From positions 62,001 through 126,000 of the forward strand of contig NZ_JAMQOQ010000006.1 in NCBI RefSeq assembly GCF_031624635.1: 64,000 nucleotides of DNA. Direction: 5' to 3'. The stretch is from Halogeometricum sp. S3BR5-2. Its GTDB lineage: Archaea > Halobacteriota > Halobacteria > Halobacteriales > Haloferacaceae. The notes beneath the pieces are model-generated. The model was not told the DNA's origin, did no database searches, and worked only from the letters and a program-made list of their open reading frames with translations. Position 1 is the first letter of the stretch. Each line of letters starts with the position of its first letter. Positions 16,282-26,772 of the stretch are shown piece after piece. Made by a program: the position numbers and the translations under genes.

Positions 16282-16393
16282 GAGTGAGTCCTGATAGGGT
16301 AGTGGACTATCCTCCTGGCTTGCGGAGCCAGGGACCGGAGTTCAAATCTCCGTCAGGACGCTTCTCTGCAGCGCAACCCGACGAGCGTAGCGA
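16282..16393. repeat. Direct repeat with tRNA-Arg, copy 1
   Basis: A 112-nt unit made of GAGTGA, the complete tRNA-Arg and its first 33 bases of 3' flank. It recurs at 18161-18272, exactly 1879 nt downstream, with a single mismatch (G at 16371 versus C at 18250). Sequence identity stops abruptly at both ends. Confidence 0.95.
16288..16360 (+). tRNA. tRNA-Arg (GCG), copy 1
   Basis: A 73-nt cloverleaf with acceptor GTCCTGA paired to TCAGGAC, anticodon stem CTGGC/GCCAG with loop TTGCGGA giving GCG, T-arm GGAGTTCAAATCTCC and discriminator G. It reads the CGC arginine codon common in this genome. An identical gene lies at 18167-18239. Its 3' flank carries several palindromes built partly from its own T-arm. 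Confidence 0.95.
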
Positions 16394-16412
16394 GTCGGCC
16401 GCGCTACAGGAA
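16362..16412. repeat. tRNA-tail palindrome after tRNA-Arg copy 1
   Basis: A hairpin beginning right after the tRNA. Its perfect inner part (16378-16398) has 5-bp arms CCGAC/GTCGG, a tandem GA/GA step, GC/GC and a GTA triloop. Outward, GCGC/GCGC, CTGCA/TACAG (one mismatch) and TTC/GAA extend it with internal loops. The cap is GC-GTA-GC, a GNA triloop. Confidence 0.75.
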
Positions 16413-16422
16413 CGGACGCAGC

Positions 16423-16472
16423 GGAGATTTGAGCAGCGAGCGAACGAAGTGAGCGAGTGAGTTCAAATCTCC
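16423..16472. repeat. Palindrome flanked by inverted and direct tRNA-Arg T-arm pieces
   Basis: The 10-bp outer stem is GGAGATTTGA (16423-16432) and TCAAATCTCC (16463-16472); the right arm is the T-arm sequence of tRNA-Arg and the left arm its inverse. Inside, 16438-16456 reads GA-GC-GA-AC-GAA-GT-GA-GC-GA: two-base pairs alternating with GA/GA steps around a GAA triloop. Confidence 0.85.
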
Positions 16473-16495
16473 GTTGGGCCATCGGCCCGACGTGC

Positions 16496-16536
16496 CTCAC
16501 ACTCGCTTCGCTCGTGTGAGACTCCGTCAGGACGCT
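16496..16536 (-). repeat. Hairpin plus tRNA-Arg 3'-end fragment
   Basis: On the minus strand, 16496-16520 has 7-bp arms CTCACAC/GTGTGAG, a GA/GA step, GC/GC and a GAA loop. On the plus strand it is followed at 16522-16536 by CTCCGTCAGGACGCT, the last bases of the tRNA-Arg copy 1 and its first flank bases. Confidence 0.85.
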
Positions 16537-18160: not shown

Positions 18161-18272
18161 GAGTGAGTCCTGATAGGGTAGTGGACTATCCTCCTGGCTT
18201 GCGGAGCCAGGGACCGGAGTTCAAATCTCCGTCAGGACGCTTCTCTGCACCGCAACCCGACGAGCGTAGCGA
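18161..18272. repeat. Direct repeat with tRNA-Arg, copy 2
   Basis: The second copy of the 112-nt unit described at 16282-16393. Downstream the hairpin's outer right arm is lost (CCGG instead of GTCGG), and at 18285-18299 the arms CTCACAC/GTGTGAG seen near copy 1 recur with only one base between them, as if the GA-GC-GAA-GC-GA cap had been deleted. Confidence 0.93.
18167..18239 (+). tRNA. tRNA-Arg (GCG), copy 2
   Basis: Identical in all 73 bases to the gene at 16288-16360, including the encoded discriminator G. The upstream sequence differs from copy 1 beyond GAGTGA, so the promoter is not shared; AT-rich DNA (cgtaaccgtcttaag) lies just upstream. Confidence 0.95.
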
Positions 18273-18352
18273 CCGGACGCAAGGCTCACACGGTGTGAGG
18301 CGAGTCTACGAAGCGGGGCACGACGAACGGGAACGGACGAAGTCGACGCCGA

Positions 18353-25493: not shown

Positions 25494-25566
25494 GGGCTCG
25501 TGGTCTAGTGGTTATGACGCTTCCCTTACAAGGAAGAGATCGGTGGTTCGACTCCGCCCGAGCCCA
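25494..25566 (+). tRNA. tRNA-Val (UAC)
   Basis: A 73-nt cloverleaf: acceptor GGGCTCG paired to CGAGCCC, anticodon stem CTTCC/GGAAG with loop CTTACAA giving UAC, T-arm GGTTCGACTCC and discriminator A. Its 3' part recurs twice downstream (25676-25696 and 25796-25814). A 57-nt palindrome begins within its last acceptor bases. Confidence 0.95.
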
Positions 25567-25620
25567 TTTCTGACGACACGCAGCGACGAGCGAAGCGAGT
25601 CGTCCGTGGAGTCGAAATGG
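25564..25620. repeat. tRNA-tail palindrome of tRNA-Val
   Basis: A 57-nt hairpin whose outer stem CCATTTC/GAAATGG begins in the last acceptor bases of tRNA-Val. Going inward: GAC/GTC, a GA/GA step, CACG/CGTG, a small internal loop, CGAC/GTCG (25584-25587 and 25599-25602), another GA/GA step, GC/GC and a GAA triloop. Confidence 0.85.
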
Positions 25621-25627
25621 GCGACGT

Positions 25628-25696
25628 GGAGTCGAACTCGGGAGTGGAGCGAACGAAGTGAGCGGAACGAGGATAGTTCGACTCCGCCCGAGCCCA
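25628..25696. repeat. Palindrome with inverted T-arm and second copy of the tRNA-Val 3' end
   Basis: An 11-bp outer stem, GGAGTCGAACT (25628-25638) with AGTTCGACTCC (25675-25685), is built from the inverted and direct T-arm of tRNA-Val. Between them 25649-25663 reads GC-GA-AC-GAA-GT-GA-GC. The right arm continues to 25696 as the last 21 bases of the tRNA, discriminator included. Confidence 0.85.
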
Positions 25697-25702
25697 TTGG
25701 AT

Positions 25703-25732
25703 TTTGTGACGAATCGAACGGTGAGTCACAAA
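25703..25732. repeat. Palindrome TTTGTGAC/GTCACAAA
   Basis: Eight-base perfect arms (25703-25710 and 25725-25732) are followed inward by GA on both sides, repeating the arm-then-GA/GA layout of the neighbouring elements, with an apical loop that lacks a clean GNA cap. Confidence 0.7.
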
Positions 25733-25748
25733 TCCGTATATCGAGGGC

Positions 25749-25814
25749 GAGTCGAATCAGGGAACGAAGTGAGCGAAGCGAACGGAGCGACCGAGGTTCG
25801 ACTCCGCCCGAGCC
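25749..25814. repeat. Third copy of the tRNA-Val 3' end with hairpin
   Basis: An inverted T-arm remnant GAGTCGAA (25749-25756), hairpin GT-GA-GC-GAA-GC-GA-AC (25769-25783), and then 19 bases of the tRNA-Val 3' end (25796-25814). This is a more degraded version of the element before it. Confidence 0.8.
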
Positions 25815-25912
25815 GATCAGAATCCACGAGCGACGCGACTTACGGAGACGCGCTACATTCGCCGTTTCTGACACACAGCCGACAACTACACCCGTCGCGG
25901 GGTCGTAGCCGG

Positions 25913-26482: not shown

Positions 26483-26556
26483 GCCGCCTTAGCTCAGACT
26501 GGGAGAGCACTCGACTGAAGATCGAGCTGTCCCCGGTTCAAATCCGGGAGGCGGCA
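26483..26556 (+). tRNA. tRNA-Phe (GAA)
   Basis: A 74-nt cloverleaf with acceptor GCCGCCT paired to AGGCGGC, anticodon stem CTCGA/TCGAG with loop CTGAAGA giving GAA, T-arm CGGTTCAAATCCG and discriminator A. A TTTT run follows at once. Its T-arm and 3' end are partly copied twice within the next 220 nt. Confidence 0.95.
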
Positions 26557-26611
26557 TTTTCCTGCGAACTACCGAGGGAGCGGAGCGACCGAGTCGTGAG
26601 CAGTGAAAATG
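26555..26611. repeat. tRNA-tail palindrome of tRNA-Phe
   Basis: A 57-nt hairpin starting in the last acceptor base of tRNA-Phe: CATTTTC/GAAAATG, then CTGC/GCAG, GA/GA, AC/GT, a small internal loop, and the core at 26574-26592 reading GA-GG-GA-GC-GGA-GC-GA-CC-GA. The triloop is GGA and the GG/CC step is a compensated variant of the GC/GC or AC/GT steps in other copies. Confidence 0.85.
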
Positions 26612-26620
26612 TTCCCCGAG

Positions 26621-26673
26621 CGGATTCTGAACCAGCGAGCGACTGAAAGGAGCGAGTGAGGTTCAAATCCGGG
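26621..26673. repeat. Palindrome with inverted and direct tRNA-Phe T-arm
   Basis: Left arm CGGATTCTGAACC (26621-26633) is an inverted T-arm with one extra base; the right arm GGTTCAAATCCGGG (26660-26673) is the direct T-arm. Between them 26637-26655 reads GA-GC-GA-CT-GAA-AG-GA-GC-GA, where CT/AG replaces the AC/GT of the tRNA-Arg copy. Confidence 0.85.
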
Positions 26674-26715
26674 GCGACATCACGATTCTACGCGATCTGC
26701 ACTTGAGAGCTGGCC

Positions 26716-26772
26716 GAGCTGTCCCCGTCGCCGCGAACGCAGTGAACGAGCGAGATACGAATCCGGGAGGCG
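26716..26772. repeat. tRNA-Phe 3'-half fragment interrupted by a hairpin
   Basis: GAGCTGTCCCCG (26716-26727) and AATCCGGGAGGCG (26760-26772) are the two sides of the tRNA-Phe T-loop region. In place of the loop bases lies a 32-nt insert with GC-GA-AC-GCA-GT-GA-AC (26733-26747), a GCA-capped member of the hairpin family with one C/A mismatch. Confidence 0.8.

Follow-up and report, generated by a model that had tools for sequence, protein, structure and literature searches.

Gene-less hairpin units with copies of the host tRNA 3' end lie behind tRNA genes in Halobacteria

Behind many tRNA genes of Halogeometricum sp. S3BR5-2 and other members of the class Halobacteria, we identified gene-less units of about 90–150 nt that have the order HA-R-HB-F and often stand in tandem. 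HA is a hairpin, R is an 11-nt arm that is the reverse complement of positions 54–64 of the unit's own tRNA (the T-loop and the start of the 3' strand of the T-stem), HB is a second hairpin, which contains tandem GA steps and a small internal loop that is asymmetric, and F repeats positions 54–73 of that tRNA, starting sharply at the border between positions 53 and 54 (53|54), where the T-loop begins. The family seems to be class-wide, fast-changing and undescribed. We propose that the units are products of a site-specific, duplicating insertion at 53|54 on the DNA level, probably by way of folded single strands, a reading to which we give slightly less than an even chance. Its observed basis is the anatomy of the units, their start at 53|54, the tRNA-specific R and F, tandem accretion, empty alleles, the spread of the family and compensatory changes in the stems.

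Units at the tRNA-Val, tRNA-Phe and tRNA-Arg genes

The analysed window is a 64,000-nt stretch of the Halogeometricum sp. S3BR5-2 genome (contig NZ_JAMQOQ010000006.1, positions 62,001–126,000), and all features given for it below lie on its plus strand. At the tRNA-Val(TAC) locus (25494–25816), the gene itself (25494–25566, with positions 54–73, or F1, at 25547–25566) is followed by HA, R1, HB, F2, HA, R2, HB and F3. HA of the first unit is a 57-nt palindrome (25564–25620) with the cap GAGCGAAGCGAG, whose outer arms extend into the acceptor end, so that inverted acceptor sequence is also kept in this unit. The initial annotation had described this palindrome, and it is real and pairs as drawn there (CCATTTC/GAAATGG, GAC/GTC, GA/GA, CACG/CGTG, CGAC/GTCG, GA/GA and GC/GC around a GAA loop), with a predicted fold as single-stranded DNA of -14.2 kcal/mol (z = -3.0; one of 200 shuffles was equal). 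It is one piece of the larger HA-R-HB-F unit. R1 (GGAGTCGAA, 25628–25636) is the reverse complement of tRNA-Val positions 54–62, and it is followed by HB with the cap GAACGAAGTGA (25637–25676), which our covariance model of R-HB-F matches at 25626–25687 (E 3.8e-4), and by F2 (25677–25696), an exact 20-nt copy of positions 54–73. In the second unit, HA (25697–25748), read directly, differs in sequence from that of the first (GGATTTTGTGAC..GTCACAAATCC), R2 (GAGTCGAA, 25749–25756) is the reverse complement of positions 54–61, HB (25757–25796) belongs to the TCAGGGAACGA...GAGCGACCGAGG class with a match at 25746–25807 (53.4 bits, E 1.2e-11), and F3 (25797–25816) copies positions 54–73 with one mismatch. 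When the tRNA-Val transcript through unit 1 is folded as RNA, the predicted structure has z = -6.1 and R pairs with the T-arm of the tRNA itself.

Elements 3' of tRNA-Arg(GCG) and tRNA-Phe, together with their absence at the Met(CAT) and Asn tRNAs of this genome, had also been noted and were found again. Behind tRNA-Phe(GAA) (26483–26556), an HA region with the cap GAGCGGAGCGA (26557–26619) precedes an R-HB-F hairpin (26620–26672; 49 bits, E 1.9e-10) in which F is degraded beyond TTCAAATCCGGG; further downstream lies a remnant of the tRNA-Phe 3' half (26699–26772), split by GA hairpins close to the 53|54 border (26699–26727, hairpins, 26759–26772). Behind the first tRNA-Arg(GCG) gene (16288–16361) there follow an HA region with the cap GAGCGTAGCGA (16362–16422), an R-HB-F hairpin of the GGAGATTTGAGCAGCGAGC..GCGAGTGAGTTCAAATCTCC class (16423–16472; 45.9 bits, E 1.2e-9), a partly degraded copy of positions 54–73 (16462–16480), and the opposite-sense hairpin CACACTCGCTTCGCTCGTGTG succeeded by a copy of the tRNA-Arg end from near position 61 (CTCCGTCAGGACG; together 16498–16534). 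The second tRNA-Arg(GCG) gene (18167–18240), identical to the first and 1.9 kb away, has only HA-like sequence (18241–18300) and lacks an F copy, the full unit being present at the first. A search of the window against Rfam 15 matched only its six tRNAs, and no described RNA family exceeded the cut-off for the units. The unit order or its remnants were also found at many other tRNA tails of this genome.

The pattern GA-NN-GNA-NN-GA with complementary NN, by which the initial annotation had characterized its hairpins, occurs 15 times in the window, compared with 2–4 times in Markov shuffles. Its predicted enrichment at tRNA 3' ends was borne out, with 2.4–3.1 occurrences per kb in the adjacent 300 nt in three congeneric genomes and a control density, 30–45-fold lower, of 0.07 per kb in 400 kb of the same genome. 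The GA cap does not, however, define the family: it is part of variable loops and is found at sites unconnected with tRNAs as well, although the genome has 20 exact copies of GAGCGAAGCGAG of which 10 are near tRNAs. The characteristic feature is R-HB-F. The GCGAAGC mini-hairpin is known for its stability, with a Tm of 78 C (PMC4686876); this is relevant to folding of DNA or single strands and silent on function.

Precision of the tRNA-derived arms

We tallied 171 units behind 119 of 234 tRNAs, a set that is partly biased by members collected in HB-based searches. An F copy is present in every unit counted. Its identity to the tRNA is 1.0 at position 54 and remains at about 0.9 through position 73; outside F, it is about 0.3 at positions 49–51 and about 0.5–0.6 just beyond 73. 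Pairing of R with positions 54–64 of its own tRNA is well above that obtained after shuffling among the copies of other units, and reaches background from position 66. In four congeneric genomes, whose tRNA flanks were chosen without regard to HB, a copy of the tRNA's own positions 54–72 was found within 700 nt 3' of 15–24 of the 46–47 tRNAs per genome, while 0.02–0.06 such copies are expected when the sequence of another tRNA is the query.

In 25 of 32 cases with a mutated F, R has kept its match to the tRNA base, which suggests that R was written at the birth of the unit and later decays. Selection maintaining the pairing of R with F is unsupported, R mostly still matching the tRNA where F has changed. 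HA is tied to the tRNA, its nearest neighbour belonging to the same tRNA of a different genome in 38.3 cases (4.0 expected), while HB is common to different tRNAs and genomes and is freely exchanged. Only 38 of 149 loci have HA duplicated along with F, and some loci repeat entire F-HA or F-HA-R-HB blocks. No gene-bearing cassette was found at the loci read, where no gap exceeding 268 nt was bounded by a credible F copy. The target rule is not absolute, since there are also copies starting from near position 61, opposite-sense hairpins and 5'-side copies of tRNA positions 1–12.

Hairpin classes and covariation

Two classes of HB were aligned. In class a (n = 34; TCAGGGAGCGA..GAGCGACCGNGG), which has a conserved T-G pair, the arms vary with the tRNA and the pairing is retained (for example, CTTGAA for Lys, AATTGAA for His, AATTTGAA for Pro and GAGTCGAA for Val). 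In class c (n = 15; ..NNNAGTCGC..GTCTNNN..), the inner stem does not depend on the tRNA, and it contains three variable pairs that change on both sides with zero G-U, a rarity that would suit DNA folding or templated writing more than a selected RNA. The observed covariation score was attained by none of 500 shuffles in either class; the covariation is strong, consists nearly entirely of Watson–Crick changes and is located on the tRNA-sense strand. The alignments reveal a common plan: the R:F pairing is followed by two base pairs, then by an internal loop that is asymmetric, its 3' side being longer by one base, and then by a stem. In genome G062, where class a has no matches, 14 of 30 tRNAs show this architecture with HB of other classes; thus, the architecture outlasts the hairpin sequence, and HB as a universal sequence is ruled out.

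Distribution of the units

In the genome of S3BR5-2, the covariance model gave 25 matches at E < 0.05, all of them behind tRNAs or displaced tRNA 3' halves. Among haloarchaea, 174 of 194 genomes were matched, representing 61 of 65 genera of the class Halobacteria; class a is missing from G005, G016, G020 and the greater part of genus g31. In a draw from the phylum, the matches fell in members of the class only, among the genomes itemised; 85 match-free genomes were not itemised. An exact gapped pattern searched among 84,980 species was present in haloarchaea only (49 stretches with 50 places), and at 46 of these places a tRNA ends no more than 700 nt upstream. Of the remaining four, two follow tRNA ends that are truncated or displaced, another is at the edge of a contig, and the last lies 191 nt from a tRNA-Val on the opposite strand.

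The exact gapped pattern had no match in the IMG/VR viral contigs, and the HB consensus had none in phage records. The exact 15-mer TGAATCAGGGAGCGA yielded 28 matches in viral contigs, which were rejected as chance occurrences with the structure absent. The initial annotation knew of no described repeat family of this form, and searches of the open-licence literature by sequence and by words likewise found no description of the unit family. A megaplasmid of Halomarina (NZ_CP100455.1; L434, 1960–2100) carries two class-a HB hairpins in an intergenic stretch between carboxylase genes, where no tRNA is annotated.

Gain and loss between relatives

In congeneric species, the number of units behind a given tRNA ranges from zero to three, and units are missing at half or more of the tRNAs in each genome. 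The flank of tRNA-Arg(TCT) is empty in G000, and in Halogeometricum limi (G025) one 105-nt unit lies ahead of the same flank. At tRNA-Ser(CGA), an extra unit whose HA is a copy of the distal flank separates the tRNA from its tail in G000; the tail adjoins the tRNA directly in G047 and G320 and is the ancestral flank. At tRNA-Ser(TGA), G000 and G320 differ by one 133-nt unit, and the HA copies are closer within a genome than to their orthologs, a sign of recent duplication or conversion. Three units follow tRNA-Met(CAT) in H. limi, so that their absence at this tRNA in S3BR5-2 is not a property of the isoacceptor. In G047, a probable integrase gene stands directly 3' of tRNA-Met (L159), marking an occupied integration site at a place where H. 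limi has units.

Units at protein-gene ends

This genome has a pair of paralogous ORFs with the end ...CTG|TTCGACGAAGCGTAG or ...CTG|TTCGACGAGGCCTGA, and behind each come R, a class-c hairpin and additional copies of the ORF end. The motif at these ORF ends, ...CTG|TTCGACGA, is T-loop-like, which argues that the border sequence is the target and that tRNA identity is not required. The G320 ortholog of the hairpin-bearing ORF has neither hairpin nor copy, and a different hairpin occupies the corresponding position at the second G320 paralog; in G047, there is no copy. At another locus (L319, G000:C5 around 157254), the last ~27 coding bases of an ORF ending in VDDARQLFA recur ~150 nt downstream, with GA hairpins between the two end copies. 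This locus and the unrelated L321 have a common motif, TTTGGTCCAGCT, downstream of their GA hairpins.

Proposed mechanism and alternative explanations

Under duplicating insertion, the target would be the 5' border of the T-loop at tRNA 53|54, within the motif G|TTCRA, and HA-R-HB would be put ahead of the old positions 54–73; the upstream tRNA would still work after the insertion because its 54–73 is supplied anew. The process would act on a folded single strand, in which the R-HB-F hairpin would rebuild a double-stranded T-loop and T-stem 3' strand, extended by two base pairs, an asymmetric loop with an extra 3' base and a stem of free sequence. By analogy, R-HB-F may be recognized in the manner of other folded sites, such as integron attC or the ends of IS605 and PATE elements, which would make a tyrosine recombinase or an HUH-type nuclease the likeliest candidate agent. 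The units, which are gene-less, resemble a minimal mobile repeat or the footprint of one. An extended version is doubtful in our estimate, namely that Halobacteria possess a cargo-free recombination system acting on folded single strands, in which the T-arm of the tRNA serves as an anchor resembling attI, R-HB-F plays the role of attC and the core is rewritten for each host gene; if it is true, one machinery can place units behind almost any tRNA and, in rare cases, at T-loop-like ends of protein genes. Several points weigh against duplicating insertion: the agent is a candidate only, and no gene is carried in the units of the loci read; HA accompanies F in only the minority of loci given above; starts at position 61, opposite-sense hairpins and 5' copies of positions 1–12 exist; direct F repeats around hairpins would be deleted or multiplied by slippage without an enzyme; and the end of R at about position 64 is left unexplained by simple fold-back copying.

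The main rival, which we regard as somewhat unlikely, is fold-back template switching, by which replication stalled at the T-arm would snap back and copy local sequence into F-HA-R-HB-F zigzags that expand and contract by slippage between 20-nt direct repeats, with no dedicated enzyme or mobile element. It would account for copies of one gene end that alternate between forward and inverted, for an R written from the tRNA and not kept by compensation, for the repetition of whole F-HA or F-HA-R-HB blocks, for the inverted acceptor sequence in the first Val unit and for the same zigzag at protein-gene ends. Random switching predicts, however, neither HB classes common to isoacceptors and genera nor one such class in a tRNA-less intergenic region of a plasmid, and the very sharp start at 53|54 and an R that ends at 64 while F reaches 73 also speak against it. 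A further candidate, the footprint of integrative elements, would see each unit as an attL–attR residue left by recombination in the T-loop after loss of a plasmid or provirus body. Transfer RNA genes are common targets of tyrosine recombinases, with the T-stem-loop being one of three known sublocations (PMC8371274), and tandem accretion at tRNAs is the usual outcome; nevertheless, none of the units at the loci read had a body with genes, HB was not found in viral contigs or phage records, and the scars of this genome at Leu(TAG), His and Thr(GGT) start in the anticodon region instead of at 54, with the units travelling along. We consider this origin improbable.

The proposal of a functional RNA tail, in which the hairpins would be terminators, processing or regulatory elements and R would pair with the tRNA's own T-arm or a downstream copy, appears similarly improbable. 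The tRNA-sense strand is the one that folds, with GA steps numbering 95 in sense and 19 in antisense within 300 nt 3', class a has its conserved T-G pair, and the Val transcript through unit 1 is predicted to be very stable. Against this, units are absent at half or more tRNAs and differ between congeners, the architecture recurs at protein-gene ends, the variable stems of class c lack G-U, the predicted RNA would misfold the tRNA and not aid it, and a T-rich stretch directly 3' of the tRNA may stop transcription before the units. An RNA role is possible at single loci, though not for the whole family. Of the roles offered in the initial annotation, a recombination-type DNA role fits better; the units at protein-gene ends, their gain and loss between congeners and the missing G-U pairs of class c speak against a tail of RNA that is processed together with the tRNA. 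Chance palindromes in GC-rich intergenic DNA have a negligible probability: two-base stems and GNA loops are short and GA-rich strings are common in GC-rich genomes, but the density exceeds the same-genome background 30–45-fold, tRNA-specific copies are exact, and the covariation is class-wide. A chance origin was ruled out by the shuffles, the genome background and the controls with other tRNAs.

Relation to known systems

The nearest described elements are the SMR and PATE repeats of Haloquadratum, with attC sites being comparable by function only. Integron cassettes form tandem arrays whose units end in a folded attC site of conserved structure and free sequence, with an asymmetric loop and a variable terminus. 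The covariation of two HB classes on one architecture is a resemblance to attC and nothing beyond that, whereas the haloarchaeal units have no cargo genes at the loci read, are anchored in a tRNA and not in attI, and have the tRNA T-loop as their core. REP/BIME elements, which are bacterial and associated with genome-encoded Y1 transposases, are short intergenic hairpins with mismatches present in many copies per genome, as are the units; REPs are, however, not known to be linked to tRNA ends or to include host-gene copies.

SMR-A of Haloquadratum walsbyi is about 110 bp long, gene-less and dispersed, with a strong preference for palindromes and an enigmatic mobilisation; it inserts in the palindromes of PATE and IS605 elements, has fixed terminal inverted repeats and makes no target duplication (PMC3119063). 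It is similar to the units in haloarchaeal origin, size, lack of genes and strong target preference. In contrast, the arms of the units are the complement of positions 54–64 of the host tRNA and vary by tRNA, the units have no terminal inverted repeats of their own, and they sit at the T-loop border of tRNAs, where 20 nt of target are duplicated. PATEs and IS605-type ends bear near-terminal imperfect palindromes in which one strand is expected to fold, PATEs being gene-less (PMC3119063). PATEs end in conserved oligonucleotides and lack both target duplication and arms specific to the target, while each unit counted has an F copy. The tRNA att sites of tyrosine recombinases (PMC8371274) also have their target in a tRNA that stays intact, with its 3' part repeated downstream. 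Compared with arrays of such sites, the units are spaced 90–150 nt apart with no integrase or cargo between the repeats, have an inverted T-arm copy and a hairpin at every junction, and occur at many isoacceptors in one genome.

If they are mobile, the units would be among the smallest target-adapting elements known, target-adapting in that their arms are written from the target. They may form a link between integration directed at tRNAs, folded sites of the attC type and the still unexplained small mobile repeats known from haloarchaea, and they represent a changeable structure at the ends of essential genes throughout the class.

Displaced tRNA fragments and 5'-side copies

As a practical warning, 3' fragments of haloarchaeal tRNAs are often units, not prophage scars. 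Displaced tRNA 3' halves were found in G000 for Leu(TAG) (L125, C1:90990), His (L126, C5:1157) and Thr(GGT) (L127, C2:173554). These are probably att scars of integrative elements with a crossover in the anticodon region, and the hairpin units remain with the displaced 3' end. Upstream of the Gly-CCC (L002 and L388) and Gln-TTG (L243) tRNAs, copies of tRNA positions 1–12 with GA hairpins between them form a 5' mirror image of the units; the 5' side of Gln-TTG also has an inverted copy, ACGGGAC-GAACGGAGTGA-AGTCCCGT.
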